A model generated the notes under the pieces. It ran no database searches. It saw only the letters and a program-made list of their open reading frames with translations, and was not told the DNA's origin. A stretch of 64,000 nt of DNA, taken from positions 6,324,001 to 6,388,000 of the forward strand of contig CAJSYZ010000005.1 in NCBI GenBank assembly GCA_910574455.1. The letters are read 5' to 3'. This document shows, in pieces, positions 2,958 through 49,787 of the stretch (positions are counted from its first letter, which is position 1; each line of letters begins with the position of its first letter). Made by a program: the position numbers and the translations under genes. The stretch comes from Trichaptum fuscoviolaceum. Its lineage: Eukaryota; Basidiomycota; Agaricomycetes; Hymenochaetales; Trichaptaceae.

Positions 2958-3353
2958 TCAGTCCTTTGTACTCTCTTTATCGGCTCGCTCACGCCATTTC
3001 CGAAGCTTCTCAATGGACTCAGCACCCTTTGCCTCACCCTCGTAAGGGCATTCGTTCTTCTTTCCCAGGAACTTCGGAAGGTCATCGTTGATGTCCTCAA
3101 CGCGCGAGCCATAGAGCATGTGGTGCGTCCTATTTGTATGACGCGGATGAGGTGCAGCGGGAAGCTGTAAGCGGGTTGCTGCCAATTGGGTGAGATGGAG
3201 ACTTACGCGCGGAACGGTCCTGGTAAGAGGTTCTGGTCAAACTCGATGAGTCCTGGAAACATAAGGAGCATCTTCCGCCCTTCATCACAAATCGGGCTAT
3301 GACAGCGAGCGCAGGAAATCTTCAGAGGTAGTTTATATTCCGCGCGCTTGTCA
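2958..3353 (-). pseudogene. 3' half (exons 3-4) of a GFA/CENP-V-domain gene
   Basis: Exon 3 (3207-3353) and exon 4 (2958-3129) are joined by an intron at 3130-3206 (GTAAGT..AATAG). Exon 3 carries the second zinc motif CARCHSPICDEG followed by the hydrophobic strand MLLMFPGLI. Exon 4 carries HHMLYGSRVEDINDDLPKF, the usual C-terminal part of fungal GFA (glutathione-dependent formaldehyde-activating, DUF636-like) proteins. There is no start codon; the first two exons lie at 49403-49787. Upstream of exon 3 the acceptor (GGCAG) and branch (CTGAT) of intron 2 remain, and then the T1 terminal repeat begins at 3394. With the 5' half the gene would encode 211 residues. It is called a pseudogene because 46 kb of transposons now separate the halves. 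Confidence 0.8.
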
Positions 3354-3393
3354 CTGCCATTGGCATCAGAAAGGTGGTTCGGACAGACATATA

Positions 3394-3427
3394 CAGGTGG
3401 GTGTAAAAAGTGGTGGAACAGTCACAT
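3394..3427 (+). repeat. T1 terminal inverted repeat, low-coordinate end
   Basis: 34 bases starting CAGGTGGGTG, preceded by TA at 3392-3393. It matches the inverted sequence at 49352-49385 with one A/G difference. Confidence 0.85.
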
Positions 3428-3621
3428 CAGGGAAACTTCCTTCTGCTTATGGCAACTGACGCGTCCTGACGCTGCCTGATTTGGCTGGCACCCGCCTTGA
3501 GGGTCGCTACTTCGTCTGAAAATACACTGATTGCCTTACCTCACTGAAATAAGGAGTGTTTCAGGATGCAAGCCGTCTGTCAGTACATCAGAGTGCAAGT
3601 CAGGATTTCAGTGCTCAAGTG
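3425..3621 (+). repeat. MITE-like repeat M, copy 1
   Basis: About 197 bases starting CATCAGGGAAACTTCC and ending CAGTGCTCAAGTG. A near-identical copy lies at 49944-50140 and a diverged one at 50146-50322. It is rich in CAGGA/TCCTG and CTGA words and has no coding potential. The class is not determined: no clear terminal inverted repeat or target duplication was found. Confidence 0.6.
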
Positions 3622-3978
3622 AATGAGGACTTAGAGTTTTTTACAAGATTCTGTTGTTTCCCACAATAGGAAAATTGATGTTGAACTTGAAGTGTTGCGG
3701 GCTTGCCCATGCCTTTTCCTCCTCACCATCATTCCTGACTCACCGCACTCGTCACACTCCTATCGACACCCGCCAATGCCACTCCTTTACAGTTCTGAAC
3801 TCGGGAACTGTTAGGCACACTTCACTCTCTTCAACGCTTGGCGGGTCGGCTTGTGGTTGGCGCATCCTTCACAACATAGCTCATCAGGCGGAAGGTGTAA
3901 AACATCGCGTGCACCCGCGGCGATACAAGTATGCACCCAATCACTCTTATTCAAGGATGATGCTTAAGCTCAAGTAGA

Positions 3979-6060
3979 TTACAGCAGAACAACTGCTTCG
4001 GGAACCACAAGAGCGCCAGGAAACAGCTTTTCACGCGCCAAAACAACGCATTGAAGACTTTGAGGGACACTATGAATACCGAGGCCGGAAGCGTAAGGAG
4101 TTTGAGGAGAGGATTCGGCGGACGAGGGGAAACTTGTATGTTTTCATGCTTGGGTTTATCTTTCAGGTGCTGACTTGAAACAGGAAAGAATGGAAATCCT
4201 ACGTTAGTTGGGAGGTACATACACTATCAAAATGACTGGAGTTATGACTGAAACTCAACGTAGGCGAGTCCAGGCGAATATGAACGTTCGCGCTCGGTAT
4301 ATGAGCGCGCTCTCGATGTAGACCCACGAAGTGTCCAACTCTAGCTCTCCTACACGGAGATGGGACTGAAGGGGCGAAACATCCAGCACGCACGCAATCT
4401 GATTGACCGGGCAGTGACTTTGTTGCGGCGCATCGACCAACTCTGGTACAAATACGTGCATCTGAAGGAATCGCTCGGAAACGTCGCTGGCGCGGGTCAA
4501 GTATCTGAGCGATGGGTGCAATGGGAGCCAGAGGACAAGGCATGGCAGGCGTACATCAAACTCGAAGAGCGATACCAAGAACTTGATCGCGCGAGTGCGA
4601 TATCCAAGCGGTGGGTTGCTGTTCGACCTGAACCCCGCGTCCGAGTCAAATCAGCGAAGTTTGAGGAGGAGCGAATCAGGCCTGACAAGGCTCGTGAGGT
4701 GTTCCAGATGGCACTAGAGTTCTTAGGTGATGATGCGGAACAAATCGAGAAGCCGCAGGCGGTGTTTAGCGCTTTCGTGAAGATGGAAACTCGATTGAAG
4801 GAGTACGACCGAACTAAGGTAATCTACAAGGTATGCACTTCCCAAGCTTATGTGCTTCTAAGTTTTAAAGCCCTTTAGTTCGCGCTGGACAGATTACCTC
4901 GCTCCAAGCCCCAGGCACTCTATGCTACCGTTTGAAAAAGTGGCATGGAACTTGGAACACTCTCGAAACCACTGTTCTGGGGAAGAGGAAGGTCAAATAT
5001 GAGGAAGAACTTGCGCACGACGGTCGAAACTACGACGTATGGTCTGACTATGCTCGCTTGGAAGAAGACTCACTGAGGTCACTTTGGGAGGAAGACGCGT
5101 CTGAGGACGAGATTGAAAGCACGATAAACCGGGTTCGTGAAGTCCACGAGCGAGCTGTTGCGCAAATACCCCCCGGTGACTTGGAGCGTCACTGGAGACA
5201 ATACATCTTTCTGTGGCTGGACTACGCATTGTTTGAAGAAGTGGATACAAAAGTCTGGTGTTTCTTTCATGTCTCTTTTTCAAGTGCTAACAACCGCCCA
5301 CGCAGGATTATGATCGGACACGGCAAGTATACCGAACAGCATTACAAGTGGTCCCCCACTAACAATTCACGTTTGCGAAGCTGTGGCTCATGTTTGCGAA
5401 CTTCGAGGTTCGGCGACTTGATCTACCCGCAGCACGCAAATTGCTCGGTGCTGCAATCGGCATGTGTCCTAAGGAAAAGCTCTTCAAAGGCTATATCTAA
5501 CTTGAGCTCGATGTAACTACCAATTGCTCTTATCATTTGCATGGTTTACTGACATTGTCTTTCAGCTTCGAGAATTTGACCACGTGCGGACGCTCTACGA
5601 AAAGTACATCGAATATGATCCAACGAACTCCTCGGCCTGGATCCAATTCGCCCAGTTTGAGGCGGCGCTTGCGGACTTCTCTCGAGCGCGAGCCATATTC
5701 GAACTTGGCACATCGCAGCAGCCGCTGTCGTACCCCGAAAACCTCTGGAAGGCGTACATTGACTTCGAGTTTGAGCAGGGCGAGCGACAGCGTACGAGGG
5801 ATCTGTATGAGCGCCTGGTGCGCTTGAGTGGCCACGTTAAGGTCTGGCGCGCGTGCGGAAGCGAGCCCGATTTCTGACAATCAGGCGTCGAGGGAAGACG
5901 AGGACGAGGACGAGGATGAGGAGGATGAGGAAAAGATGGTGAAGGGCGATTTGAATCTGGCTCGCCAGGTGTTCGAAAGAGCATTGTCAGCCGCAAGCGG
6001 AGGACGGTCGACGAACCTACAAGGTACGCACTCGCTCAAGCTTATGTGCTTCTAAGTTTA
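3979..6060 (+). pseudogene. CLF1: degenerate copy of a CLF1/crooked-neck HAT-repeat splicing factor
   Basis: Successive exons read like the pre-mRNA splicing factor CLF1/Syf3 (CRNKL1), a HAT-repeat scaffold of the NineTeen complex. It begins [17 protein letters not shown] and includes [19 protein letters not shown], then HAT motifs such as [35 protein letters not shown] and [17 protein letters not shown]. Intron relics remain in place (near 4130-4180, 4831-4878, 5254-5306 and 5516-5564), so the copy derives from genomic DNA and not mRNA. Damage includes a Trp-to-stop change in the QLW..SYTEM segment near 4350, further stops and frameshifts near 4930, 5360 and 5500, and no original N-terminus or C-terminus. 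It lies inside T1 and looks like cargo captured from the host gene. Confidence 0.75.
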
Positions 6061-6362
6061 AAACTCTCCTAATTCGAGCTGGACAGATTACCTCGCTCCA
6101 AGTCCCGGGCACTCTATGCTGCCTACACCAAGTTTGAAAAGCAGCATGGACCTCAGAACACCCTCGAAACCACTGTTCTGGGGAAGAGGATGATCCAATT
6201 TGAGGAAGAACTTGCGCACAACGGTCAAAACTACGACATATGGTATGCTCGCTTGGAAGAAGACTCACTGAGATCACTTCGAGAGGAAGATGCGACGGAG
6301 GACAAGATGGAGAGCGCGATAAACCGGGCTCGTGAAGTCTACGAGTGAGCTGTTGCGCAAAT
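6023..6362 (+). pseudogene. second, internal copy of part of the CLF1 pseudogene
   Basis: This stretch repeats, with about 80 percent identity by eye, the intron and exon at roughly 4830-5170 (words TTATGTGCTTCTAAGTTT and [20 protein letters not shown]). It even includes the intron. It therefore arose by DNA-level duplication after capture, or by recombination with another pseudogene copy. It ends in a stop within REVYE*AVAQ. Confidence 0.65.
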
Positions 6363-6513
6363 GGAGATGCTGAACAAGCTAGCACAGGACAAGGTGGAAG
6401 ACGAGGAGAAGAAAGCAAAGAGACCAGAGGATGAAGAAGACGAGAAACTTGTCCGAAAGTCTTCTCGAAGATTAACGCATCAGGCTCGTCAACTTCTCAA
6501 CTACCGCGGCAGG
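6363..6513 (+). pseudogene. ORF remnant interrupted by retrotransposon A (left part)
   Basis: A Glu/Lys-rich stretch (KVEDEEKKAKRPEDEEDEK) leads into SGSSTSQLPRQ and stops at the A insertion point. The frame continues at 48717 beyond the element. There may be one frame change near 6460. The family is not recognised. Confidence 0.4.
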
Positions 6514-7331
6514 TGTTACGACCGTCGGGAATTGTAGCGGGAAACAGTTTCGGGAAACTGGAATTCGCGACAAGAACCTGCGTTCGGGAATCTGGATTCG
6601 CGACTGGGAACGAGCGTGGGAATTCAGGCGGGAAACGCGCGGGATTCTATCCAGGCGCGTCGCGGGATTCTCAAGGCCAGCTAGGACTCTTCACTGCTTT
6701 GGACGTCAAGTAAGCGGATCCCTAAGGAAGCACTCCACAAGTAAGTATTGCGCAACTAACTACACAGGAGAAAAGAGAGAGATCGCACCTAAGGAAGCAC
6801 TCCACAAGAGGTCAAAAGTGGGGTGCTCCTTACGATGCCTACAGCTATTTATCTACTTCGTAAAGACTGTATAGTTAATCTACGCTAAGTGTCCTTGCGC
6901 AATGCGCACCTATCTACTACAAACGATACATGCTACGACCGCACTGCTAGGCATGTCTATCCCGTCTCTCCAGATGGCTACGGCCTGTCCGTGGACGTCA
7001 GCGTCCGGTCCGGGGCCGCGACTAGCCAGACTAGGTATGCCAGACTGTTGCAGGTCGTCACCTTGAGGTACTAGCGGATTAATGAGCGTATGTTGATAAG
7101 TGAATGTACGTGTGCCGTGGCGGGTCGTCGTAAATGAGTGTGTGTATGCGTGCATGGTTGCCGGGACGGTGGTGCGGGATAAGTCACGTGAGCATGGGAT
7201 CGTGCGATTCGGGAATGAGGTTTCGCGCCGGGAATCCAATGGCGGGATTCTCCCCGCGGGATTGTCTGCTCATGTCGGGATCCTTGGCGGGAAAGTGCGG
7301 GAAATGAGAAAAGGAGCCCGGGATCTCGACA
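6514..7331 (-). repeat. element A, 3' LTR
   Basis: An 818-base LTR with TG..CA ends, equal in length to the copy at 47899-48716 and differing from it by about six bases. It is flanked by GCAGG (6509-6513), which recurs at 48717-48721. On the minus strand it contains ACTTTTGACCT, the self-priming 11-mer. The A pol frame reads into this LTR and stops at 7184. Confidence 0.9.
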
Positions 7332-7553: not shown

Positions 7554-8035
7554 TGTAACACTTGGTTACCACCAGTAGTCCGGACGTCGGATCGTACGAT
7601 TGAGTGCGTACGAAAGTACAAGTTGTTCAGTCAGGAGTTGGGATGTGGACGCAGCGGTCGTACGGACAATTAGTACGATAGTGTAGATACTTCTAGTATA
7701 GGAATCGCGCGTGTACGAGTAGTATATATGGACCTTCGTACAGTCGTGGGAGAATCATCTTATTACCACCTACCACATCCATCGTCTGCAGCAGAAAAGT
7801 CGTCTAAACTCCTCGGCGAAGCGTTCGATTGTCGATCCCTCTCTATCAACGCTCTACAACTTCATGTTAGTCCGTACCGCGGTACGAACGGTTCGAACGA
7901 ATAAGTCGTTCATTCTAGCTGGAGTCCATTTCCTCTCTCAAATCCATTTACCTCCCTTTTTCACTCCCTCTTCCTCCACCCCTCTAAAGAGGGTCTCAGT
8001 CCAAATCAAACCCCCAACTCACTCGCACACTTTCA
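7554..8035 (+). repeat. element B 5' LTR
   Basis: Starts TGTAACACTTGG and ends CACTTTCA. A TATATAT-like motif (AGTATATATGG) sits near 7720, about where a promoter TATA box is expected. It differs from the 3' LTR in the CAGTCGTGG/CGGTTGTGG stretch near 7742. Confidence 0.9.
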
Positions 8036-8037
8036 TC

Positions 8038-8052
8038 TGGAGCCCACCGCGA
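8038..8052 (+). other. element B primer-binding site
   Basis: TGGAGCCCACCGCGA starts two bases after the LTR. It begins with TGG as expected for pairing with the CCA end of a tRNA. The tRNA cannot be named without the host tRNA set. This differs from elements A and D, which use self-priming. Confidence 0.55.
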
Positions 8053-8142
8053 GGGGGTTTTTTTTGTTGAAATAAAAGAATTTTCTCCCACTGGGAAAAC
8101 GATCGTCCTCTCGAGCCACCCGTACGACGGGCAGAGAGAATC

Positions 8143-11130
8143 GTGCCTCCCAAGCTTGCACCGTCAGGTTCCACTGGGGACAAAAAGGGGAAAGGTATCG
8201 AGGGAAGAGTGCCGCCAGCGCCGGGAAAAGCGACTGGCAGTTGTTCAGCATCCTTAGGAAAATCCGTTCGAGGTGCACCACTTGCAGGACACCAAAGGAC
8301 CGTTTCAGCAGTCCAGATAGCATCTCCTAGAGGTCGAACTGGTCTTAGGACTACGCGAAACTCGGTGAGATCTGTGACTCTGGAAGATTCAACGAGCAAT
8401 ACATCCGTACCGCTCAGTACGGAGCTGTCGACGGAAGACACAATCCCCACTCCCACAGACGTCTCAACGGTATCTTCAGAGTTATCCACAATTACACCTT
8501 CAGAGGCTGAACATCCGCCAATCTCCACGCTACCGGATCTAGAGAATCTCAACACCTTGCGTTTGCGCTTCGGGTCAGGCCGAACCGAGTTCGCTCGAAA
8601 TCGTTCCTCCTCAGAACCTGGATACGGTCCCTCCGTTAAAAGAGAACCAGTCGTACCGCCAGACAACTTGCCCTTTTTCTTGTATCCCGAGTCGTTAGCA
8701 GCACCGCCAAGGCAAAATCGTCCCTTGCCTCCGTTACCTGTAGAGCCAACTGCACCCGTACGATCCGTACGAACGCCCTCCCCAGTCATGAATTACAAGC
8801 CAATGCCGCCCAGCACTTCGTCTCATGCCCCGAGGTTTAAGGATGGAGAGGCACATGAGATACAGTCGTTCCTTGCGGCCTTCAATGATCGTGCTAGGGA
8901 GGCCGGGTTGAGTGACCAAGAGAAGATTAACCGGGTCGTGCATTATGTCGATTACGTGACAAAAAGCAACTGGAAAGCGTTGGATGAATACGATGGCGAT
9001 AACTGGAATGCTCTCGAGGCGGCTATCCTGGCGTCGTATATCATCGAGGATAAATGGCTATATTCGTTGTCGCGGTTCGAGTCGTTCGTACGAGAGTACC
9101 GAGACGGGGTCGATGGAAAACGAATTGACACTCTGGAAGGGTTCATGGAATACCATCGTACGGCCACCACCTTTTCAAAGCACCTCAAGAAAGACCAGAC
9201 CACCTCTGTAGACCAGGTAGCTCGGGTGTACGCAACTGTGTTCGACGGTACGAGCGCGGGATCTCAACGACTGAGGGAGCAGATTCGGACCCAATTGCGC
9301 ATAGACTGCCCCACTGTGCATCCGAACCATGCCTACTCCATTGTACAGGTTAAGACAGCAGCAGTCTTTATGCTGCAGGGCGCCATTGATGAGGAAAGTC
9401 GTACGCCGATTATTAGCACCGGTACGACGGTTAAGCTAGAGCCAGAGGTTGACGGCCCTCGACTAAAAGAAATGGCGCTGGAGCTGCAATCACTTAAGCA
9501 AACAGTAGCGGCCTACCATGCACAACTATTACAGTTCAACCCACCGGTTCGACCGTACGGAAATCCGATCGTTCAAGCGCCATATGTACCCTCAGTAGCT
9601 GGTCAGAATCCGGCGCCGTATGCTCCCAGACTGCCATTCGATCCAAACAGGAGGACCAAGGGTACAGCATGTGCATATTGCAGCCTTGATGGGCATTTCA
9701 AGCGAGACTGTTCGGATCTGCAAGCAGATAAAACCGCTGGTATATGCATTCAGAATGAGAACTGGAGGATTTTGATGCCCGACGGGTCTGAACCTCCGTA
9801 CCAGTATGGGATTTGCTTGCGTGATCGCGTGCGGGCGCATGCGTCTCGTACGAAAGGTTCGAGCACGGCAGCTACAGTTGCACCCTCTCTTGTGTGTGAA
9901 GCCGTTGGCTACACTTCGAGTCCTCAGCCGTGCTACATGATAAGTTCCTCTGGCTCGTTGTACGAGTGCGACGCCAGTGGGGCTCTGATTGAGACGGTGA
10001 GAGATGGCGAAGGTAGAGACGAGTCTGAACCAGAAGATGAAGAGTCTCAGGACGCACACCAAGAGTTGGCAAGACTCGAGGTGTACGCCCAAGACATACA
10101 GGAAAAGGCTAAAGGGAAGGGCAGGTCGAAGCCGGCACAGGTGACGGTTGAGGTACCAAGAATGACGAGGAGTTCTGGTGCCAAACCCGTACCGTCCGGT
10201 TCGAAAGCCCTGTTGACGGCGGAATCGCAGACGCCAGAGGTAGTGAAGGAAAAAGGTAGTACGGCTCCCAAACCCATACCAGTGACAGTACCGCCCAAGC
10301 CGACTCAGTTGCAAGCAGAGGGGCCAGTTGAAAAGCGAACCATGCTCGAGAAGGTAGTTGAGTCGAACGCTGGGTTCGTATGGTCGTACTTGTCGCCAGC
10401 TGAGGAAGACCGGCCGGATGCGGGTGAGCGAGTCTTTGCACAGATATTGAGGTCCGAGGTCAATCTCCCGGTTGCCGACTTGCTTGCCTTGTCACCGGAG
10501 TTGCGCAAGCGCTTCAGGGAATATTGTACCTCGAAGCGAGTCTCGAAGCCAGCGGTTCAGCCATCCCCGGCTACAGAACCAGCCGTACCAGCCGTACGAG
10601 CAAGAATGCCGGCGCCAGTTTACTTCAGCAAGGCGGACTTGAAACGACAGCTCACCAGTGGTCTAGACGAAGAGGGTAACATTGTGGCACGAGACTTACT
10701 CCCTCTTCGCTCGATCGACGTTAATATCAATGGGAAGGTCGACTTGACTGCGGTTCTGGATACTGGCTCGAGCATCACAGCTATCCATCGTGATGCTTGG
10801 GAAGAAATGCACGACATCATGCGAGTAGAGCGAAAGTACGATATGGAAGGAGTCAATGGCGAAAGGACTACGACCATGGGCATCATTCACAACGCACGCG
10901 TACGGATCGGTACGGCAGTCCTCATTATGCACATTCATGTCTTGGAAAATGCGCCGTTTGCGCTGTTGCTTGGCCAGCCATTCTTTGCGCTTACACAGAG
11001 TGTTATGGAGCATGAATTGGATGGGAGTATGAGCCTGACTATGCGAGACCCTAATACTCAACAATTACACAAGGTAGCTACAAGGGCCAGGGTGTCGAGC
11101 CGTCCGGAGACGGCTATGCTGGGTTTTTAG
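8143..11130 (+). CDS. gag-pro: element B Gag-protease polyprotein
   Basis: A 995-residue ORF starting MPPKLAPSG. The N-terminal 230 residues are Ser/Thr/Pro-rich and low in complexity. A Gag capsid-like region follows (about 235-430, with WKALDEYDGDNWNALEAAI), then a CCHC zinc knuckle CAYCSLDGHFKRDC (about 507-520) for RNA packaging, an acidic linker, and near the C-terminus a retropepsin with active site VLDTGSSITAIH (about 867-878) and a later ALLLGQPFF strand. The ORF ends in TAG directly after the slippery GGGTTTT, so protease stays with Gag while RT lies in the -1 frame. The start is the first ATG after the PBS. Confidence 0.85.
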   Translation: MPPKLAPSGSTGDKKGKGIEGRVPPAPGKATGSCSASLGKSVRGAPLAGHQRTVSAVQIASPRGRTGLRTTRNSVRSVTLEDSTSNTSVPLSTELSTEDTIPTPTDVSTVSSELSTITPSEAEHPPISTLPDLENLNTLRLRFGSGRTEFARNRSSSEPGYGPSVKREPVVPPDNLPFFLYPESLAAPPRQNRPLPPLPVEPTAPVRSVRTPSPVMNYKPMPPSTSSHAPRFKDGEAHEIQSFLAAFNDRAREAGLSDQEKINRVVHYVDYVTKSNWKALDEYDGDNWNALEAAILASYIIEDKWLYSLSRFESFVREYRDGVDGKRIDTLEGFMEYHRTATTFSKHLKKDQTTSVDQVARVYATVFDGTSAGSQRLREQIRTQLRIDCPTVHPNHAYSIVQVKTAAVFMLQGAIDEESRTPIISTGTTVKLEPEVDGPRLKEMALELQSLKQTVAAYHAQLLQFNPPVRPYGNPIVQAPYVPSVAGQNPAPYAPRLPFDPNRRTKGTACAYCSLDGHFKRDCSDLQADKTAGICIQNENWRILMPDGSEPPYQYGICLRDRVRAHASRTKGSSTAATVAPSLVCEAVGYTSSPQPCYMISSSGSLYECDASGALIETVRDGEGRDESEPEDEESQDAHQELARLEVYAQDIQEKAKGKGRSKPAQVTVEVPRMTRSSGAKPVPSGSKALLTAESQTPEVVKEKGSTAPKPIPVTVPPKPTQLQAEGPVEKRTMLEKVVESNAGFVWSYLSPAEEDRPDAGERVFAQILRSEVNLPVADLLALSPELRKRFREYCTSKRVSKPAVQPSPATEPAVPAVRARMPAPVYFSKADLKRQLTSGLDEEGNIVARDLLPLRSIDVNINGKVDLTAVLDTGSSITAIHRDAWEEMHDIMRVERKYDMEGVNGERTTTMGIIHNARVRIGTAVLIMHIHVLENAPFALLLGQPFFALTQSVMEHELDGSMSLTMRDPNTQQLHKVATRARVSSRPETAMLGF
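11121..11127 (+). promoter_or_regulatory. probable -1 ribosomal frameshift site of element B
   Basis: G GGT TTT followed at once by the gag stop TAG fits the X XXY YYZ rule. In the -1 frame translation continues GVKEPEGARG..., which is open to the E insertion and then joins the RT frame exactly after E is removed. No downstream pseudoknot was worked out. Confidence 0.65.
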
Positions 11131-11324
11131 GCGTCAAGGAACCGGAAGGAGCCCGGGGAGACGAAGGCACGAGTGAGCTGGTTCTGACGATAGGACTAGA
11201 CGAAGATGCTCGAGGAGCAGACGAAGCGTACGACGCGTACGAGACGAGGGAGGCGGACGAGGCGATCGAAGAAGACGAGGCGGACGCGGCAAACGTGGCG
11301 AACGAGACGAGTGAAGGGGACGAG

Positions 11325-12110
11325 TATGACAGCATTTATCGACAAGTATTCGAGCTTTGAGGTTTTGCATGCTTTACGCAACTTTAGTGGAACATACGTA
11401 ACTTTTTTGTCTTTACGTAACTTGTTACGCAACTTTTGTACGTAACTTTACACCATTACTTACAGGATTTAGCTTGCTACTCCTCACATTTTCAGCTCTC
11501 GGTAGTACAGCTCTGCCTTACGTAACTATATGCAGCTATACAGTGGTTCACATTAAGGTGTCTGTGGTTCAGAAAAGTTTTACGTAACTTTTTTTTTAGA
11601 TACTATAGATATGTTATACCTTTCTGTACTGAAGCATTATCCTGTATACCTTTTAAATATATTTCTTATTGTTGATTATCTTGTTTGGTTCCTTTTAATC
11701 AATAATAGTATTGCTGGAAATGTATAATATCTTATCTAGTAAATTTACGAGAGTTGTTATACGATATATACAATAACTGACTTTTTTAATTACTTGGGCA
11801 AGTGGGTCAATGGGTTTAGCTCCCCAACTCTGGTAAAGGTTGGCAGGCGGAACCCTTCCTGCTTTGTAACCTATCCAACAGGCTACGGGTTCAACTCAGA
11901 CTAATGTAAATAACTTTTGTAATTCTTTTGTTTCTTTCGTTTTAAATAAAAACAATTCTTATGTATTTTATCAGCTATAAATATTGTAATTCTGCTAGAT
12001 TCCTGCATGTCTACATCAGTCCCATGTATAATTGGTGTTACAGCTGTAGGGGTACATGTGGGCTGCCGAGTGTAAACAGTCTCTGGGGAAATACTAGGGA
12101 GTGTTACAAC
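11325..12110 (+). repeat. element E, left inverted arm
   Basis: 786 bases, AT-rich, with several TTACGTAACTT words near 11395-11450. The arm matches the reverse complement of 15122-15907 with only a few differences by eye, such as TATCAGCTATAAAT against TATTAGCTATAGAT. Confidence 0.8.
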
Positions 12111-14518
12111 TGTCAGGCCCGGACCCAAGCCTTGCCTAAGGGTGGTCACGAGTTGAGGAAGCAGAGTGAGAGCGGAAGGGCAAACAAAACGCGAGGACAA
12201 AATAGCGAGAGACCAAGTAGTCGGGATTCCGGTTGAAGTTCCCGCAATCCATGATCCAGGATTCTACCGCGGGATCCTAAGATGAGTTATCAAGATTTTA
12301 GATTCTGAGAGCAAGAAAAGTGCGTGACGGCGAGAGTGAGAGCATAAGAGTGAAGCAAGGATGGATCTTGAGGGCCTAGCTCGTAGAGTAGCCTAAAGAC
12401 TTATGATATTCGAGTCAAGGGATACATGACAAGTTTCTACAAGTTTATATACGCGTATGAGTCTGAGATAAGAAATGGGAAACGGAATATGTTTTCGGGA
12501 CGTGAAGGTGAGTTGTGTAGTGACACACGGGATTTGGAGAATTATTGTGGGACATGTAGCTTACACAAGGAACCGGGGATGTATGTTAGAACAAAGGGTG
12601 ACGGGAATGTGATCAGAGTGATTTGAAAATGGTGATAAAGGATAATAGATAGATTTCGGGGTTTTACGGGAATGAAGTAGGAATGAATGGTAGTCTGGGG
12701 TGTGGTACTGTCAGAATGTCTATAGGGCGTGTTTGTAAGGTGTGTTTGTAAGGTGTGTTTGTAAGGCATGGTTGTGGAACATGTTTGTCATGTTTGTTGT
12801 GTATTTGGAAATGTCTGGCATGAGGTCCGGGTTGCAGGAGCCGGGACCGGATGTCAGGATTTGTGATGGCGCGGGAATGTTTGTTCGTCGGGTATTAGGT
12901 GTCGTCATGACAACAACTTACAACTGTGGGGGAACCTGGGGGCTGGGAAGCTTTGTAACACTTGGATTTCATCCAGTGTTTGTACAAAGTCCGCCGGATG
13001 CGACAGCAGCACCCGGAAGACAAGCAAGCACCCGGAAACCGGAGTCGCTCAAGTACAAGACTCGGCAGCATACCAGCAAGTTCAGGGCATCAGAACAATG
13101 CAGAAGACGCAAGGCAAGAAAGCGGAGTCACTCAAGCACAACTCACAGCCGCAAGACAGTGCATCTGACGGACACCGGACAAGCAGCAAGGCTGCCGGCC
13201 GACACTCAAAGCCAAATAGCACAGGGAAAACTGTACCTGAGCACAAGTGATAGACAGGCCAAAGCACAGAGCTCACCAGCAATCACACAATGGACAATGC
13301 AATGGGCGGACAAGCAAACAAGCCAGCGGACAAGGTCACGGACATGCAACCGGCTGGACACTTAGAGTGTGGCAACACGGGTGAGTGGCGTGGGAAATGG
13401 GCGGACAATTGAGGAACAGGAACAAAAACAATGGGTTGGGTTAGTAGAGTGTGGCCAGAGTAGCCGGTTCACACATGATTTACTCCAGTGAAAATCACCA
13501 CATGTACTACCATGTGAAATTTTATGTTCTTTCTCCCCACCACCACTACATGTGAGCGAGAGTGAGAATCTCTATGGTGTGACGTAGGGTGTCAACAGAC
13601 GGGCTCAACAGCCTGACAGATATCTTCTGGAGTTCCCTCGATGGGTGTGGTGGACAAAAGACGACGGGGCTCAATCGCCATTCTTTACTGGGGAGTTTGT
13701 TTCTTGTCTTTGGACTTCTGTGAGGGGGACAATGGCGCACGCAGAAGACATACAGATGGGCTATTAGTGTCTGCACAACAGCGCGTTCTTCTGATTGTCC
13801 TGTTTGTTAGAGTTATTCATTTTTATCTCTCTTTATTATTATTATTCTTCAGCTCACACATTTGAGATGTGCTCGAACGGACAGTCCGTACGGCATCTGT
13901 ACACGTCCGAGCGCATATAGGAGAGTGTGTCAGTTAGCATGCGCGGAGTCGCCGCGGACGGCACATACAGTTAGGAGTAGAGTGTCGGATATTCATTATC
14001 CGCACGTCTACATATTGGAGATGTCTTGGTACATGACGAGTATACCGAGACATATTATAGGAGACATCTTGGTACATGACAAATGTTCCAAGACATATTA
14101 TTTTCTTTTCGTATATAACTTTGACTTCACGGGAAGGTCACTCCCTCAGTTCTTTTCCCCACAAACTGAGGTGAGCAACTAATCACTTTATTTTACCATT
14201 CAATAACTAACCACTTGTACTAGTGATTATCTTATTAGGTACTTTACTTGATTTAATTGAGTTCTTTTCCCCACAAACTGAGTGATTATCATATTACTGT
14301 TCCTTTCTTACGGGTTGTTTCTTGTCTTCGGACTTCTTGCGAAGGGTTGTGTTGGGCGGACGTGCGAAGACTCTGTCTACGGACATTTGAGGGCTGTTTG
14401 GCTATTTCACTAGTTTCCTTTGTTGTTTCTCTTCTTCTCTTTGTCTTCTTTTACTACTCTTTTATTCTTACCGGGTTCCCTACACTCCCACCCCCTTATC
14501 ATTTATCATCTTTTCAGT

Positions 14519-15111: not shown

Positions 15112-15121
15112 TTCCCCCACG

Positions 15122-38249: not shown

Positions 38250-38292
38250 GGACGCTGCTAAACAGCGTGCGTGTTCGTACCGATCCGTACGG

Positions 38293-41200: not shown

Positions 41201-42116
41201 AGACTTTGGCGAAATCGCGGTACTGCGGCGGTACGAGTTCTTCGAACGACTTCTCGCCTTCCTTCACTGCAGTCTTCTCAGCAATTGCCTGAGACCAGGT
41301 GTACGAAGCGGCGATCCGCTGTGCGAAATCCGGGTCATCCGTGACAAAGAATTCCTCAGAATCGTGATAAACATCCCAATACTTCTCAGAATACCGGAAG
41401 CCTGGCGGAACTTTGTCTCGTTCGCTGACCGGTTCGTACGTACCACCCGAGTCGTACGGTTCGTCCTCGAGCTCAGCTACCGTCACTCGAGTTCGAGGAG
41501 GTGGCCGAGGCTTCGCGCGGCGTGCGCGGTTCGAGGTCTCCGTACGAGCCGTGCGCACTGCGTCTGACTCCGGGGGACCTTCCATCTGAAACTCCGTACG
41601 GTCCGTACGAGGCTGACAGGCCTTCGCACAGCGCGTAAAAGTCATCTGGTCGTTCGCCCAGTCGATCTCTGGGTTGTGGAGTCGCAACCAATCGACCCCA
41701 ATAATCAGGGGATAGTCCCCAATGTCTGCCACTACTGCAGTCACGTTCTCCGTGTGCGATCCGACTGTTAAACTAATCGGCACTTCATCTGTGAGCCAGC
41801 CCACATTGTTCAAAGAGTTGTCTGCGTTGTACAACCGCTTACGAGGGACCAAAGGTCTCGTACGGAGCCCGAACCGTTCGACAACCGTACGGTTAATAAA
41901 TATCGATGAGGCCCCACTGTCTAAGAAGGCTCTCATCCTTAAGATCTTTCTGCCATCGCTGACTCTCACAGGAAAACGAATGAACCGGCGCAACTTCTTG
42001 TCTATTGACTGTACACTAGTAGACACAGAAGGGACTGGGACATCATTTTCTAAACAAGAGAATCGGTTCTGGGTCTCGAGCGGCGCGACGATGCGCTGAG
42101 ACCCTAGTTGAAATCC
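38293..42116 (-). pseudogene. pol: element D pol: protease, RT, RNase H, integrase, chromodomain
   Basis: Entry is by -1 frameshift at 42110-42116. Protease has FLDSGASSIFINRT. One frameshift near 41080 separates PGAVPSY from MAPNERTALKEF. RT has FFIKKKDGSLRMVVDYRKLN and an intact catalytic YLDDLLIFSE. RNase H starts ILECDASDFATGAVLSQ. Integrase has the HHCC domain ([31 protein letters not shown]) and D, D, E in FDFITQLP, IISDRGPQF and TDGQTERVNQE. A chromodomain (QYLVRWKGYQSDEDTW) ends the protein, with stop at 38293. Downstream of the shift, 934 codons are uninterrupted. Confidence 0.9.
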
Positions 42117-43303
42117 GATTCCTTCGAGAGGTGCGCCATAAGGACTTTGGCAGCATCAGAAACAGAGATTGGGCGTTCGGTCGTACCGCTCGGTACGAGG
42201 GGGGTCTCGTCCGAGACGTCAGAGATCGAAGCAGTGGGAGCTGGGGCCGGTACCTGGGGTGTCGAGGCCGTACTGACGTTCGTACGGTTCGAGGTATTAG
42301 ACGCGGGCGCTTGGGGCACTTGGCGGACATATGACCTTTCTCGCCACAGTGGAAGCATAACCCCTTGCGCAGCGCCTCTTCCCTACTGATCTGGTCCACC
42401 TCCATCGCGTTCGGGTCACGGTGGCTCGAGCCGGTACGAGGCTGGTTCGAGTTCGACGTCTGACGCGTCTGGAAAGCAGTTCCAGTGCGCTGAGGGATGG
42501 GGTTGGTACGAGTTGTGGCACGGATGGCTCGCAGCTCATCATCGTAGACACAGCAGGCCTTCACATACCCATCAAAGTCCTCAGGCATCTTCTTGAGCGT
42601 CAGGTCCGTACGAAAACGGTTCGAAAGTCCGTACCGGAACCAAGCAATCCATGGTTTATCGTCAGCAACCCACTTGGTCTTGACCTTGAGAGCCCTGTAG
42701 CGAGCAGCATACTCAGCCACGGTTCCAGTCTGCCTGAGAGCCATAATTTCGTTCTCAGCAGCAGCAACAGCATCAGCTTCACCATATCCAGCAGCCAGAG
42801 ACCTCCAAGAAAGTGTCCAACTTGTCGAAAATGGCGACCGGCTCGCCCTTGTGGATCGAGTCCATGTAGGGACGCACCCACTCGTCTGCAGGGCCTCGAA
42901 GGTAAGTCGCAGCGAACTGGCACTTCGTACGCTCGTCCGGGAACTCGTGCGGGCGCATAGAGATGTAGTTCCGTACCTGACCGGACCAAGCTTCGTACGA
43001 AAGCTTGTCCTTGTCCGCGGCATCGCCCTTGGGGCCGTAAAACAAGCCTGGGGGTGGAATCTTCGGACCCTTCGTACCGCGCGGTTCGGCGACGCGCGTT
43101 TCGAGCGCTCCCTTCAAGTATGCATTCTGCTGAAGCAACTGATCGATCTGCTCCCTCCAGGGGGCCATATACTGGTTCAGCATAGCCTGAGTCGCCTCAT
43201 CCATAGTTGGGGGTTGTGGGGGTACGGGTGCCTGTACGGGTGCGACGGGGGGCGCTCCAGGAGGGCCTCCGGGCGCAGGAACAGGCGGTGTAGCGTTCTG
43301 CAT
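42104..43303 (-). pseudogene. gag: element D Gag, frameshifted
   Basis: Starts MQNATPPVPAPGG. A Pro-rich N-terminus is followed by capsid-like sequence (KDKLSYEAWSGQVRNYISM, CQFAATYLRGPADEWVRPY). A shift near 42800 moves the frame at FDKLDTFLE; it resumes SLAAGYGEADAVAAAENEI. The zinc knuckle is CFHCGEKGHMSAKC. A second shift near 42330 follows it, and the C-terminus ends HLSKESDFN with TAG at 42104. Its domain order matches the intact-looking Gag of element A. Confidence 0.85.
42110..42116 (-). promoter_or_regulatory. probable -1 frameshift site of element D
   Basis: The minus strand reads G GAT TTC two codons before the Gag stop (AAC TAG). The -1 frame is open into protease. Element A has G GAT TTT at the equivalent place. 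Confidence 0.55.
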
Positions 43304-43386
43304 CGTACGGGCGTTCGAGCGAAGCGAGCGTCGGCAGAATGGTTCGAACGGTACGAGTTTTTTTGCGCGAGGTAGTGAGAAAAAAG

Positions 43387-43397
43387 ACTTTTGGCCT
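43387..43397 (-). other. element D self-priming primer-binding site
   Basis: AGGCCAAAAGT on the minus strand, two bases inside the 5' LTR edge, is the exact reverse complement of ACTTTTGGCCT in the LTR (43572-43582). The LTR 11-mer is the predicted RNA 5' end, as in the Tf1/sushi group. Confidence 0.75.
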
Positions 43398-43399
43398 AA

Positions 43400-43971
43400 T
43401 GTTACGACACAGAGTGGTTCTATGCGTTCTCAGGACCTCGGACAACGTAAATCGGACGATCAGCGGCTATGCAAAGCGGTTCCACACTCTGGGAAGCACT
43501 TGACAAGTCAATTAAGCTATTCTACACATCAGAAGCACAAATATAACGTCACCTGGGAAGCACTTGACAAGAGGCCAAAAGTGGAGTGCTTCTCAGGCGG
43601 ACGGGCGCTTTTGGCAAGCGCAGGAGGAACTATACAGTTCCTCCAAGCCACCGTCCGTACGGACCCGTGGTCCGATCCGAATTTGAAATACAAATAGAAA
43701 GATGAATAAGCATCGCTGGCGCGCCGGGTTTGAACCCAAGCGCACCGAAAAGTGTCCGTTAGTGAATAGAATCAAAAGAAACAACAATCCCCGTGTGCAG
43801 ACAGATGCAAAGGTGTACGCACCGTACGGGCTTCGTACCGAACGCGTACCGCTGACCGTACGAGCGTCTCGTACGATGTCAGGAATCGAAAGTAAAGAAA
43901 AGACATCAGTAAATCATAAGTAAAAGGAAAATAAAGGAAAACAATAAGTAAATCCGTGGCGATTCCTGACA
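43400..43971 (-). repeat. element D 5' LTR
   Basis: 572 bases. The predicted transcript start is near 43582 at ACTTTTGGCCT. Followed by CCTCC, the target copy. Confidence 0.92.
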
Positions 43972-44140
43972 CCTCCCGGCTGAGGCCACCCCGGACGCAG
44001 TCTGAGGACAGCGTCCCTCCCCCTCCCGGCTGAGGCCACCCGGGATGCGTCTGAGGATGTGTCCCTCCTCCTTTTCTGGCTGAGGCCATCCCGGATGTAG
44101 TCTGCGGACAGCATCCTTCCCTTTCCTGGCTGATGCAGAG
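43972..44140 (+). repeat. 52-56-base minisatellite, right part
   Basis: Three further units (GGCTGAGGCCACCCCGGA.. near 43980, 44029 and 44082) and a decayed fourth. They share the unit at 37550-37663. Confidence 0.75.
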
Positions 44141-44712
44141 GCCTCGTGGCAAGGTCCCCATGGCCTGCATACTCATCAGGCTCTGTGGTAAGCAAGCTGA
44201 GCCAATTTATGTGTGTGGCTTTTTCTGCACGCATGGCTTTTGCTGTTATTCTCTCCCTCTGCCTCCCCCCTCTCCTTTCTCTTTGTTTTAATTGTAGATT
44301 GGTAGCTACAGCATGTAGCACTGTATATTAAAATATAATGAAATAATTTTTCGTAGCAAATTTTAACATGGCAGGCCGACTTCTGTCGGCATTTCCTAAA
44401 TCAGGATAAAGGCTGATACTCGGGCTTGGATCTAGGCCTAGGTGTTATTTTTGGAACAACGGAATTTTACGGGGCACCGGAGAAGGCTCCTGCTGTCCGA
44501 AAATGGATGGGCACCCTGAGAGAAGCCTCAGGGTCTCAGGGCTTCGTGCAAACCCCCCGAAAAGGCAGTGGTATATGCCCTAGTTAGGCTGAGCACAAGT
44601 GAGCAATAGTGGCAGTAGTTACTGTGCAAAATTCGTGATAGTTACTGTGTTTTATTCACATAGCCTTACACTGATTACTGTAGTTCATTGAATTAAACAC
44701 CTGGTAGCAGTG
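44141..44712. other. element C right end, noncoding
   Basis: No gene is seen. Subterminal words of C occur near 44620-44700 (GTTACTGTG, TTCATTGAA). Confidence 0.4.
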
Positions 44713-46613
44713 TCGTAGTTGCGTTCCGCATCGTTGAGGGATTTCGAGAAAAAGGCGACCGGATGTATCAGCCCGTCGTCGCCTTCCTGGGACAAGACCG
44801 CGCCGGTCGCGAAATCAGAGGCGTCGCATTCCACGATGAATTGTCGCGACATGTCTGGCATCATCAGGACGGGGGCGGTCGTGAACATGCACTTGAGATA
44901 GTCAAAAGCGAACTGCTGGTTTTCCGTCCAGACCCAGCGAACGTCCTTCTTCAGCAGCGTCGTGAGCGGTTTGACAATGTGCGAGAAATCCCGAATAAAG
45001 CGTCGGTAGAAATTCGCGAACCCTAGGAAGGCTTGAATGTCTTTCACCTTTTTCGGGGTAGGCCAGTCGAGGACTGCCTGTACTTTGGCGGGATCCATCG
45101 CCACCTTTCCCTGCGAAATAATCATCCCGAGATACTCGACGGAAGTCTGTTTGAATTTGCACTTTTCGGGTTTACAGAACAAGTCGTTTTCGCGCAGCCG
45201 CTTAAGGACTTCCCGTACGTGTTCATCATGCTGCGATTCATCTTCGGAAAAGATTAGCAAGTTGTCAAGATAGATGATCACGTATACTCCAATGAGGTCC
45301 TTGAAGATATCGTTCATCATGTGCTGGAAGGTCGCCGGGGCATTCGTGAGCCCGAATGTCATCACCGTTGGTTCGAAATGTCCTGCCTGAGTCCGAAATG
45401 CGGCCTTCCACTCGTCGCCTTGCTTCAGTCGCACGTTGTGGTAGCCCCATCGCAAATCTAACGTTGTGAAAACCTTCGCCTTTTGCAGTGCGTCTACGAG
45501 TTCCATCGTGAGGGGAAGCGGGTATCGATTCTTGACCGTGATATCGTTCAGTCGTCGGTAATCGACTACCATGCGCAAGGTTCCGTCCTTTTTCTTGATA
45601 AAGAAGACGGGAGCCGCTGCAGGGGATTTCGAAGGTCGTATGTACCCTTTGCGCAGGTTTTCGTCAACGAATTCGCGAAGGGCGTCGCGTTCGGCCGGGG
45701 CCAAGGGATAGATTTTGCTGTACGGGGGAACCTTCCCGGGTTCTAGATCTATGGCGTGGTCATACGGCTTGCGCAGTGGAAGCCTTTCGGATTCAACTTT
45801 CGAAAAAACGTCGGCAAACTCACGGAATTCGGGGGGAACTAGTTCTTCAAAGGTTTTCTCGCCTTCCTTCACCGCTGACTTCTCAGCGATGGCCTGGGAG
45901 TGGGTGTACGAGGCGGCAATTTTGTACGCGAAATGGTCGTCCGTCGTGACAAAGTAGGATTCGGCGTCGTGGTACAGGTCCCAATATTTTTCTGAGTACC
46001 GAAATCCCGGTGGGACAGCTTCCCATTCGGCCTGGGTCCTGTCGGGCCCCCAGGGGGTCTCGACTTCTTCTGCTATGGCGAGGCGGGGAAGCGGGACCAG
46101 GCGTTGCTGGTTGTCACACTGAGGCGGGCAGCGGTTGAGATCGACCACATCGTTGGTCCAGTCAATGGTCGGGTTATGGTGCCGCAACCAGTCGATCCCC
46201 ATGATAATATCGTCGTCGCCAATATCCGCGACGGCCATCGTCAACTGTTCTAAGTGTCCCTTCATCTCGATGTGGAGGACTACTTCCTTGGTGATGCGTC
46301 CAATCGCGTTCGGGGAATTGTCTGCGTTGCGCAAAAGTATCGGGATTACCAAGTCCCGGGTCTGGAGTCCGTGTCGCGAAACGTAGCGGGAATTTATGAA
46401 AGTTCCCGACGCACCGCTGTCTAACATTACTGTGGCTAAGGCATCCGTTTTTCCGTCGCTAACCTGTACCGGGAACTTCAAATGTCGTCTAAGACGACGG
46501 TCTATTGTAGAGATGGTTAAATACAAGGGACCATTATTAAGAGAGTTCTTCGGCCACAAGGGCGGTTGGGTCGTATAGGGCGCGACTGAGCAATACGACC
46601 CTACTGAAAATCC
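44713..46613 (-). pseudogene. pol: element A pol N-terminal part: protease and RT
   Basis: Entered by -1 shift at 46607-46613. Protease has VMLDSGASGTFINSRY. RT has FFIKKKDGTLRMVVDYRRLN, FTTLDLRWGYHNVRL and TFGLTNAPATFQHMMNDIF. The catalytic box reads YLDN instead of YLDD: the codon at 45261-45263 is AAC, so the second catalytic Asp is lost. RNase H begins FIVECDASDFATGAVLSQEG and breaks at ERNY, where C is inserted; the rest lies at 26455-28126. An ATG at 46868 opens the same frame further upstream but only as a shadow of gag. Confidence 0.88.
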
Positions 46614-47809
46614 GCTGGGGGCGGGGCTTCGGGATTGTGAACGTTCTTGGCGGCGGGCGTCATGGCGGCGAATGCGTTCTGTAGCACGGACTGCTGCACA
46701 TTCTGGACGTACTGTTCCGCCATACGTTTGAGCGTTTCTTCGAACGACTGGAGCGTGGGGGGCGATGGGCTCGACGGGGACGTGGATTTCGTAGCCTTTA
46801 GGTTTCGGGATGGCGGTCGCGTTGGGCAATCGCTCACCAGATGGTCTTTCTCTCCGCAGTAGTAGCATAGTCCCTTACTCCTGCGCTCCCGGCGCACCCT
46901 GTCAATCTCCATCGCGTTGGGATCCTTCGTCGAGCTTGCGCCCGCAGTCGGGATCGTACGCGGAGCTGAACTAGTGGTGCCGGGATTGCTTCGGGGTGTA
47001 GCCGCTGGCTTCGATACTGGTCCATAGGCGTGTGCGAGCCTTAGCTTCTCGTCCGTCTCGGAAACCCAGTTGACGTAGGCATCGAATTTCATATCCTTCG
47101 CCTCTGTGCTGGCGATGTGCTGGCAAACCTGGTCTTTGAGTCCCTTCCAGAACATGTCGAGGTAGATGACATCCGTCGTCGCGTCCTTGGGCCACCCGGT
47201 GAGGGCTTGGAGGGCACGGAATTGCGACGCAAACTCGGCGACCGTTCCTGTCTGGCGTAGGCGCATCAGCTTGTCGGCTGCGGCTTTGTCTGCATCGATT
47301 TCTCCGTAAGAGGCGCGAAGGGCGGCGAACAGGGCCTCCAGGCTGGCGGCTTCTGGCGGTGTCGGGATGTCCTGGAGTCGATCTAGAATGGGTCGTGCCC
47401 AGTCTTGCGCCGGTCCCCGCAGTAGCATCAGGGCGAATGCGACCTTGCGGGTTTCGTCCAGCCCCGGATGTTGTCCGAACAGGTAGAGCTTAATCTGGTG
47501 AATCCAGTTTTCCAGCTTGGCTCGTTCGCCTTCGAAGGTGTCGGGAAGCTTCATCTTGAGCCCTGCTCCACCCCCAGACGGGGAGGCGGGCTGGCTCGCG
47601 ATTTGGGCTTCTAACGCCTGGTTGGCGTGCTTGAGCTGGGCGACAGTGTTCTGAACCTGATTGTGTTCGTTGACTAACTTGGAGTAGCGTTTTTCGAGGG
47701 TGTCGAGGCGATCAAGGATGGGCTGGAGTTTGTCTTCCTCCATCGAGGAGCTCGGGGACGGGAAAGCGAAGGTATCTGCGAGTCCTCCCCATTCCTGGTG
47801 GGATGACAT
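46601..47809 (-). CDS. gag: element A Gag
   Basis: 402 codons from MSSHQEWGGLADTFAF. A coiled-coil-like stretch (LDTLEKRYSKLVNEHNQVQN) precedes the capsid region (GERAKLENWIHQIKLYLFG, ALMLLRGPAQDWARPIL, ADKLMRLRQTGTVAEFASQF). Then comes the zinc knuckle CYYCGEKDHLVSDC near residue 315. The frame is intact, unlike the pol of the same element. It ends PPPADFQ and TAG, overlapping pol. Confidence 0.9.
   Translation of the reverse strand: MSSHQEWGGLADTFAFPSPSSSMEEDKLQPILDRLDTLEKRYSKLVNEHNQVQNTVAQLKHANQALEAQIASQPASPSGGGAGLKMKLPDTFEGERAKLENWIHQIKLYLFGQHPGLDETRKVAFALMLLRGPAQDWARPILDRLQDIPTPPEAASLEALFAALRASYGEIDADKAAADKLMRLRQTGTVAEFASQFRALQALTGWPKDATTDVIYLDMFWKGLKDQVCQHIASTEAKDMKFDAYVNWVSETDEKLRLAHAYGPVSKPAATPRSNPGTTSSAPRTIPTAGASSTKDPNAMEIDRVRRERRSKGLCYYCGEKDHLVSDCPTRPPSRNLKATKSTSPSSPSPPTLQSFEETLKRMAEQYVQNVQQSVLQNAFAAMTPAAKNVHNPEAPPPADFQ
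46607..46613 (-). promoter_or_regulatory. probable -1 frameshift site of element A
   Basis: G GAT TTT followed by CAG TAG. The -1 frame continues SGFSVGSYCSV into pol. G GAT TTA is a known slippery type in another retroelement group, so GGATTTY is plausible here. Confidence 0.55.
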
Positions 47810-47885
47810 CGCTGGTCGGCGGTACGGGTGCGGGGGTAGAAGTAAAGAGCGTGAGGGTGTCGAGTCCGAGCGGCGGTGAGCCAGG

Positions 47886-47896
47886 ACTTTTGACCT
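47886..47896 (-). other. element A self-priming primer-binding site
   Basis: AGGTCAAAAGT on the minus strand, two bases inside the LTR edge, is the exact reverse complement of ACTTTTGACCT in the LTR (48194-48204). Confidence 0.75.
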
Positions 47897-47898
47897 AA

Positions 47899-48716
47899 TG
47901 TTACGACCGTCGGGAATTGTAGCGGGAAACAGTTTCGGGAAACTGGAATTCGCGACAAGAACCCGTGTTCGGGAATCTGGATTCGTGACTGGGAACGAGC
48001 GTGGGAATTCAGGCGGGAAACGCGCGGGATTCTATCCAGGCGCGTCGCGGGATTCTCAAGGCCAGCTAGGACTCTTCACTGCTTTGAACGTCAAGTAAGC
48101 GGATCCCTAAGGAAGCACTCCACAAGTAAGTATTGCGCAACTAACTACACAGGAGAAAAGAGAGAGATCGCACCTAAGGAAGCACTCCACAAGAGGTCAA
48201 AAGTGGGGTGCTCCTTACGATGCCTACAGCTATTTATCTACTTCGTAAAGACTGTATAGTTAATCTACGCTAAGTGTCCTTGCGCAATGCGCACCTATCT
48301 ACTACAAACGATACATGCTACGACCGCACTGCTAGGCATGTCTATCCCGTCTCTCCAGATGGCTACGGCCTGTCCGTGGACGTCAGCGTCCGGTCCGGGG
48401 CCGCGACTAGCCAGACTAGGTATGCCAGACTGTTGCAGGTCGTCACCTTGAGGTACTAGCGGATTAATGAGCGTATGTTGATAAGTGAATGTACGTGTGC
48501 CGTGGCGGGTCGTCGTAAATGAGTGTGTGTATGCATGCATGGTTGCCGGGACGGTGGTGCGGGATAAGTCACGTGAGCATGGGATCGTGCGATTCGGGAA
48601 TGAGGTTTCGCGCCGGGAATCCAATGGCGGGATTCTCCCCGCGGGTTTGTCTGCTCATGTCGGGATCCTTGGCGGGAAAGTGCGGGAAATGAGAAAAGGA
48701 GCCCGGGATCTCGACA
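47899..48716 (-). repeat. element A 5' LTR
   Basis: 818 bases. On the minus strand ATAAATA (48231-48237) lies 27 bases upstream of the predicted transcript start at 48204 (ACTTTTGACCT), the spacing of a working TATA box. Followed by GCAGG. Confidence 0.9.
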
Positions 48717-48858
48717 GCAGGACTCACCTTCAGACGATGAGTTGCCTGCGCCGACATCGACTCTAGCTGTGAGACTTAGAAGAGACAATGTGAAGCTGCG
48801 GTGGAGCCTCGCGTCGCGCGAGAGCGCCGTGGATGCTAGCATGTTTGTGCCGCAGTGA
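48717..48858 (+). pseudogene. ORF remnant interrupted by A (right part)
   Basis: In frame with SGSSTSQLPRQ at 6480-6513, it continues DSPSDDELPAPTSTLAVRLR and ends SAVDASMFVPQ with TGA at 48856-48858. It belongs to the cargo of T1. No family is recognised. Confidence 0.4.
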
Positions 48859-49351
48859 CATAGCTTTTTTGTTTACTTATTATTGTACTTATCTTACACT
48901 TGCATTATAATTATTTACTTAGATTGACTGATTAACTGAATTCTCTGAATGCCTGACCTGGCTGGCTGACTGGCTGAAGCTCTGATTTCAGCGAGCTTGC
49001 CTTATTTCAGGCAACGCGTCCTGAATAATGGGAGGACATGCATGAATAAGTAAAGCTTGCCTTATTCAGTCGCCAGTCTCTCAAGACATTTAAGTCACGC
49101 TTCAGTCACTTTAAGCAGAAAGTAGTTTTCCTGATGCACGTGCTGACTAACTTTGTCACACGTTACCCCTGCTGCGAAAACAAAAGGCTTTAAAGCATTT
49201 CTTTACTACTTTCAGGGCCTCAAAAGTTGCATAGTGATAGATCTATAGACATTTGACAATATTCTGAAATAATACTTGCGAAAATGCAGCAGAGAAATGT
49301 AAACAAGAGCATGGATTGTAACTTAGGGTGTAGCCAAATTAGGAAGGTAAC
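48859..49351. other. T1 right interior, noncoding
   Basis: AT-rich. CTGA/TCAGG-rich words near 48950-49130 resemble repeat M, but no clear copy is defined. No gene is seen. Confidence 0.35.
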
Positions 49352-49385
49352 ATGTGATTGTTCCACCACTTTTTACACCCACCTG
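49352..49385 (-). repeat. T1 terminal inverted repeat, high-coordinate end
   Basis: Inverse of 3394-3427 with one mismatch. TA follows at 49386-49387. Confidence 0.85.
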
Positions 49386-49402
49386 TACAATAGAGAGCAT
49401 AC

Positions 49403-49787
49403 TGGGGATTGTAGAATATGAGTTCTTCTTCTCCTTGACTGAAGTGCACTGCGTCCTTATGATAGATTGCCGCCCATTGATATGGTGCCCCGTGTAGACG
49501 CTGACAGTCTCGACAGTGGCAATAGCTAGCATCTAAGTTCAAAGCCCAATAATGTTTAATGCATAATCACTCGAAGACAGATAAACGAATTATTACATAC
49601 CTAACGGATCTTCGGCAATTTCAAATTGAACAGTCTCGCAAAAACATTTGCCGGTGTATTTGACTTGAAAATCCTTTCTCGTACGAGCGTAGGGTGCACG
49701 CTTGAGGCGTTCCTTGTCGTCTGGAATGACGATGTGCTGATCTTCTGCCTCAGAGCTTTGAGAATGAATAGTTTCGTTCTGCGACAT
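49403..49787 (-). pseudogene. 5' half (exons 1-2) of the GFA/CENP-V-domain gene
   Basis: Exon 1 (49601-49787) starts MSQNETIHSQSS and reaches YTGKCFCETVQFEIAEDPL. A 68-base intron (49533-49600, GTATGT..ACTTAG) leads to exon 2 (49403-49532) with DASYCHCRDCQRLHGAPY and EEELIFYNP. KCFC and CHCRDC are the first zinc ligands of the GFA fold, and the residues match the family order. The exon ends at CA|GTATGC, the donor of intron 2. The T1 repeat begins 17 bases into that intron. In-frame ATGs exist upstream (49841), but this one gives the usual family length. The 3' half is at 2958-3353. Confidence 0.82.

Follow-up and report, generated by a model that had tools for sequence, protein, structure and literature searches.

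In maize, ZmATM and ZmTti2 carry Gypsy and other transposons in their introns while their exons are kept, recent insertions are absent from a relative, and both genes are expressed, plant introns being routinely long (PMC5681926). In the mushroom Pleurotus ostreatus, which has recent long terminal repeat (LTR) elements, about half of the insertions are polymorphic between the two nuclei and genes near transposons are repressed (PMC4905642). The locus described here, a GFA-family gene of the mushroom Trichaptum fuscoviolaceum, lies in a 64,000-nt stretch (C5:6324001-6388000, referred to as the window; zero N) of a genome assembled into 12 contigs that total 59.09 Mb. It shares with the maize genes the transposon-filled intron and the kept exons, but it is a fungal gene with introns of 55–77 nt of which one has grown to 46 kb; the P. 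ostreatus insertions described lie beside genes, whereas those in the window are stacked inside an intron. Seven insertions nested in one another occupy intron 2, their order can be read from their boundaries, and public sequence matches the same intron without them. We put a probability of roughly 0.8 on the reading as a whole, namely that a miniature inverted-repeat transposable element (MITE) followed by nested insertions produced a 46,049-nt intron in a recent, probably polymorphic allele that would be close to null in function. Transposons that insert into one another or settle in introns are familiar; what stands out is the size for a fungus, where the longest annotated introns of compared species range from 1,356 to 42,135 bp (annotations only; PMC7181583), and the existence of an empty and a filled version. 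No description of this case was found in the titles and abstract openings of the literature, in which most subscription papers were not covered.

The gene is read on the minus strand, with exon 1 (49787-49601, ATG at 49787) and exon 2 (49532-49403) on one side of the insert and exon 3 (3353-3207) and exon 4 (3129-2958, including the stop) on the other, which confirms the split, the common strand and the right order described in the first-pass annotation of this DNA. Introns 1 and 3 measure 68 and 77 nt, and intron 2 in its present state runs from 49402 to 3354. Cutting between the two TA copies and joining the flanks reproduced the 55-nt intron 2 and the continuous, stop-free 211-residue frame that had been proposed, with the intron signals kept: donor CA/GTATGC next to exon 2, and CTGAT and GGCAG in front of exon 3. 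The 211-residue protein matched the Pfam family GFA (PF04828, GFA/CENP-V; E=1.3e-18, 67.6 bits against a cut-off of 24.3), and the closest solved chain by sequence was 8ajq_A, a CENP-V/GFA protein (E=8e-07, residues 43–96). Seven cysteines (C48, C50, C67, C69, C72, C120 and C123) are common to the joined protein and its relatives in a 12-sequence alignment, some rows of which are partial; we take these to be the zinc ligands of the GFA family, the full set of which the annotation had expected in the joined product.

Searching collected proteins with the joined product gave 19 matches among 47 candidates, and the exon 3–4 part gave 2 matches among 3 candidates. Two of the sequences found span both halves in a single gene, in line with the annotation and not with an origin of the halves in different genes: the full-length proteins P0001 (224 aa, on a 1,010-bp contig), with 79% identity over 88% of the query, and P0002 from Rickenella mellea (Agaricomycetes, Hymenochaetales), with 66% over 88%. 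A third, P0003, is an open reading frame (ORF) that runs from exon 1 across an intron of other length and exon 2 into intron 2, implying the same donor; its exon parts are about 97% alike to the window gene. After FYNPQ it continues with YALYCTCLSDPPF, against YALYCICLSEPPF from the joined window, 11 of the 13 intronic residues being alike and the stop standing at the same place, so its source, a slightly diverged relative, evidently carries no insertion in intron 2. P0007 and P0020 enter exon 3 from the intron.

The empty site that had been predicted is best represented by P0020, a 111-aa ORF standing for a cluster of 8 sequences on 15 public contigs (the longest 46,838 bp). It reads exon 2 in another frame, passes through the 55-nt intron into exon 3 and is identical to the joined window flanks at 111/111 residues, the TA junction falling after residue 49; this comparison concerns the cluster representative, from which other members may differ. 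Against the unjoined window the same protein gives two separate matches (49532-49380 and 3394-3206). Because intron codons lie inside P0020, it represents contiguous unspliced sequence and not a spliced model, and an empty allele of the GFA-family gene evidently still exists in public sequence. Under 0.37–0.73% divergence, the chance of no residue change at about 257 sensitive sites is 0.39–0.15, and P0020 may thus come from the same species as the window. A search of the collected proteins for a filled-site ORF, using a 69-aa frame, returned P0020 alone (1/1 candidates), which is the empty form; as a gene caller may skip a frame of this type, the ORF search does not show filled alleles to be absent.

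Two other candidate explanations were rejected. That two unrelated genes stand in order by chance is incompatible with orthologues spanning the full length and with an empty site that matches at 111/111 residues. A second intact gene copy as a source of confusion is likewise set aside: DNA searches of the assembly placed each gene half at a single genomic position, and a protein search of the genome gave one further place, with 39% identity over residues 43–88. A search with the GFA family itself found 6 places, this gene among them.

Both inner edges of the split intron had been described as inverted copies of one 34-base terminal repeat, and comparison with an intact element elsewhere in the genome bears this out, agreement being 34/34 nt at the edge towards exon 3 and 94% over 35 nt at the edge towards exon 2. 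A 26-nt MITE end searched with zero mismatches occurs at 8 genomic places, 2 in the window and 6 that pair into three elements; a related family with 3 mismatches in this end explains the other 4 places. The three intact copies are 278 bp long, mutually identical and flanked by TA in 3/3 cases, with terminal inverted repeats (TIRs) of 32–35 bp and no coding capacity. In the window the MITE is present on the plus strand as two complementary pieces, 3394-3424 (target-site duplication TA at 3392-3393) and 49137-49385 (TA at 49386-49387; 99.2% to the three genomic copies), such that element positions 1–32 align at 3394-3425 (0/32 differences) and positions 30–278 at 49137-49385 (2/249). The TA duplication, inverted ends of about 32–35 bp, length of 278 bp, lack of coding capacity and identical copies are those of Tc1/mariner-type MITEs, and the founding element is accordingly classed, by these features, as a 278-bp Tc1/mariner-type MITE. 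Together, the three intact TA-flanked copies, the complementary window pieces and the 111/111 ORF put the observation beyond chance. The proposal that an element targeting TA entered a tiny intron, which was enlarged later, is therefore supported and can be refined to a small MITE followed by insertions that can be ordered. Two of the identical copies elsewhere (L003 and L005, C7:5019048-5019325 and C7:5023118-5023395) lie 4 kb apart in the same orientation, with differing flanks.

The second level is a TIR element spanning 3425-49136 (3,504 bp net) with the ends CATCAGGGAAACT and AGTTTTCCTGATG. Its left piece (3425-6513, plus strand) begins with CATCAGGGAAACT next to the duplication CA at 3423-3424, and its right piece (48717-49136, plus strand), the first 5 nt of which are the GCAGG duplication of element A described below, adjoins CA at 49137-49138. 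Relatives are numerous in the genome, with at least 46 matches for the left part and at least 41 for the right (40 scored in each case of 377 and 280 first-look candidates, respectively). The exact left end was present in 6/9 loci and the right end in 10/20, the window being one in each, and all five copies in which both ends were located have 2-bp duplications (TG, TA, AC, TG and CA), four of these copies being about 5.2 kb and one 3.1 kb. The window copy carries a HAT-repeat splicing-factor-like fragment (4360-4875, plus strand; match 1.5e-9), for which there were 72 matches among 82 genomic candidates, a search that singled out no parent gene, and one 5.2-kb copy carries a GT5 (starch/glucan synthase) fragment (L058:1947-2693; match 6e-16). 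With these host-gene-like pieces the family may resemble Pack-type TIR elements, which carry gene fragments, and the Helitrons of fungi that have captured such fragments (PMC4289320), but its TIR ends and 2-bp duplications show that it is not a Helitron. The Plavaka transposase (PF18759) has at least 165 matches genome-wide, with 123 of 834 candidates scored and some elements matching several times; a level-2 helper did not emerge from the three places checked, as at two of them the match lay outside the level-2 end and the third had no such end.

Element A forms the third level (6514-48716, minus strand), with LTRs at 6514-7331 on the exon-3 side and 47899-48716 on the exon-2 side and the duplication GCAGG. 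Its gag, protease and reverse transcriptase (44685-48031, minus strand; two open frames, 46601-48031 and 44685-46874) are separated from its integrase part (26452-27996, minus strand) by element E. At the fourth level, A contains LTR element B (7554-26454, plus strand; LTRs 7554-8035 and 25973-26454; duplication CCGT), which has further inserts inside and the domain order protease, reverse transcriptase, integrase on the plus strand, and element E (28127-44712, unoriented), which lies within the pol of A, with the duplication TCGTAGT and imperfect, TIR-like ends CAGTCCTACCAG and CACTGCTACCAG; the break in pol falls right at this boundary. The fifth level comprises two elements within E: the full-length LTR element C (37664-43971, minus strand; duplication CCTCC), with identical LTRs, and the Tc1/mariner-type element D (33094-34431, plus strand; duplication TA), the ends of which differ from those of the founding MITE. 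A and C, with paired LTRs and 5-bp duplications, are of the Ty3/Gypsy type, reverse transcriptase-RNase H preceding integrase in one frame with a chromodomain in C and in two pieces around E in A; both have the gene's strand as their coding strand, and B and D the opposite one. Matching target-site duplications were found for all seven insertions (MITE, level 2, A, B, E, C and D), one of them being weak if taken by itself. A single 46-kb element was considered and ruled out, since its ends are those of a 278-bp MITE and its interior is made up of separate elements, each with a duplication of its own.

Further structures were seen inside B and E. B contains 786-nt inverted arms (11325-12110 and 15122-15907; 4 differences) 3 kb apart, with an LTR-like piece of A's family between them, and a search gave no certain duplication for the insert at 11325-15907. 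In E, a stretch of 720 bp bounded by inverted ends of 45 nt (35984-36703) is perhaps another MITE, and the two frames of at least 250 aa outside C and D had zero Pfam matches.

These boundaries also bear on the possibility that the arrangement is an assembly artefact, in which repeats were collapsed or wrongly joined and the gene is intact in the strain. The insert is highly repetitive, public contigs carry the empty site, and the other nucleus of a dikaryon could carry it too. Set against this, the seven matching duplications stand at nested boundaries, the MITE pieces (positions 1–32 and 30–278) and the level-2 pieces are complementary to the base, and each gene half has a single place in the 12-contig assembly. 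A mistaken join would not create nested duplications and complementary pieces, which makes a misassembly at the locus unlikely, and an artefact leaving the gene intact would appear extremely improbable.

The most probable history is one in which the 278-bp Tc1/mariner-type MITE landed at TA in the 55-nt intron 2; the 3.5-kb TIR element next entered the MITE, and LTR element A the TIR element, after which B and E entered A, and C and D entered E, until intron 2 reached 46,049 nt. Differences between paired LTRs fall with depth (A, 6/818, 0.73%; B, 2/482, 0.41%; C, 0/572, 0.00%), the same order that the nesting demands. At substitution rates between 1e-9 and 1e-8 per site per year, the age of A would come to about 0.4 to 4 million years, an upper guess because of CpG mutation. 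In A and B, 6 of the 8 differences between paired LTRs are C/T or G/A substitutions in a CpG context, the pattern expected from methylation. By CpG depletion the exons did not stand apart from the larger elements, and a low value (0.43) was confined to the short MITE. The anatomy, the order of the layers and the empty site are shown by the sequence. Since neither the exons nor the splice signals have changed and the empty allele occurs in very close relatives, we take the filled allele to be real and recent, and it is probably polymorphic within one species.

For the function of the filled allele, little full-length mRNA is expected: transcripts begun at exon 1 would mostly stop or be mis-spliced inside the insert because of the two sense-oriented LTR elements, the fungal mode of intron definition and silencing near transposons. 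In mushrooms that methylate their DNA, genes flanked by transposons are often silenced. Intron definition is the main mode of splicing in fungi (PMC2397502), Pleurotus genes beside or between transposons are repressed (PMC4905642), and in matsutake 83.2% of 702 transposon-surrounded genes are not transcribed (PMC6980582). The filled allele would yield at most a truncated product and be near-null; when exon 2 is read onward without splicing, the resulting frame of 126 residues ends in the MITE and lacks C120 and C123. Sense AATAAA words (16 in 46,049 nt) are at about chance level and add nothing. The left end of the level-2 element recurs as a 198-nt copy (93%) at 49943-50140, which is 156 nt upstream of the ATG of the GFA gene, and the promoter may thus be hit too.

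Several observations weigh against this history and its outcome. The 786-nt inverted arms of B differ by 0.51%, more than the LTRs of B (0.41%), but arms of this kind may already differ when an element inserts. For E, the duplication was chosen among words shared by two zones of about 75 nt; a 7-mer in common is no rarity in such zones, and there was a second one, but the boundary of E rests as well on the break in A's pol and on the TIR-like ends. Intact exons, frame and splice signals also fit a working gene, and exon decay compared by halves showed no downstream excess (6 window-specific against 5 P0001-specific changes downstream, 5 against 1 upstream). With an insertion so young, neither intact exons nor the lack of a decay excess discriminates.

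The same intactness, of donor, branch-like motif, acceptor, frame and cysteines, is what would be seen if the filled allele were transcribed through, the 46-kb intron removed and a normal protein made. The maize genes that keep their function with transposon-enlarged introns (PMC5681926) and annotated introns of up to 42,135 bp in some compared fungi (PMC7181583) lend this some plausibility. The sense orientation of A and C and fungal intron definition (PMC2397502) speak against it, intact signals are expected anyway at so young an age, and we consider it unlikely. It is quite improbable, too, that a correctly spliced filled allele, with one of the longest working nuclear introns of any fungus, segregates against the 55-nt version in a species whose introns normally measure tens of bases.

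The orientation of A also allows a gene split into two transcription units, exons 1–2 ending in the insert and the LTR of A at 6514-7331, which is on the gene's strand and faces exon 3, driving exons 3–4. Nothing points to an active LTR in A, this LTR is separated from exon 3 by a MITE piece and about 3 kb of the level-2 element, and exons 3–4 lack an early in-frame start (in the frame from 3421, the first ATG is the M of MLLMFPG); we regard such a division as very improbable.

The locus offers a dated, layer-by-layer record of a 55-nt fungal intron becoming one of 46 kb, with the empty version still in public sequence. The empty and filled pair makes it possible to test the longest intron that a fungal intron-definition spliceosome can remove and the layer at which a gene is lost; should the gene prove silent, it would be a clear example of a gene lost because an intron overgrew while every exon stayed undamaged.

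Elsewhere in the window, a frame at 1135-1971 (minus strand) has a weak hydrophobin match below the cut-off. A 2.46-kb direct repeat (52279-54744 and 58656-61113) shows 4 substitutions in 2,458 aligned positions, and the frames around which it lies are without a Pfam match.

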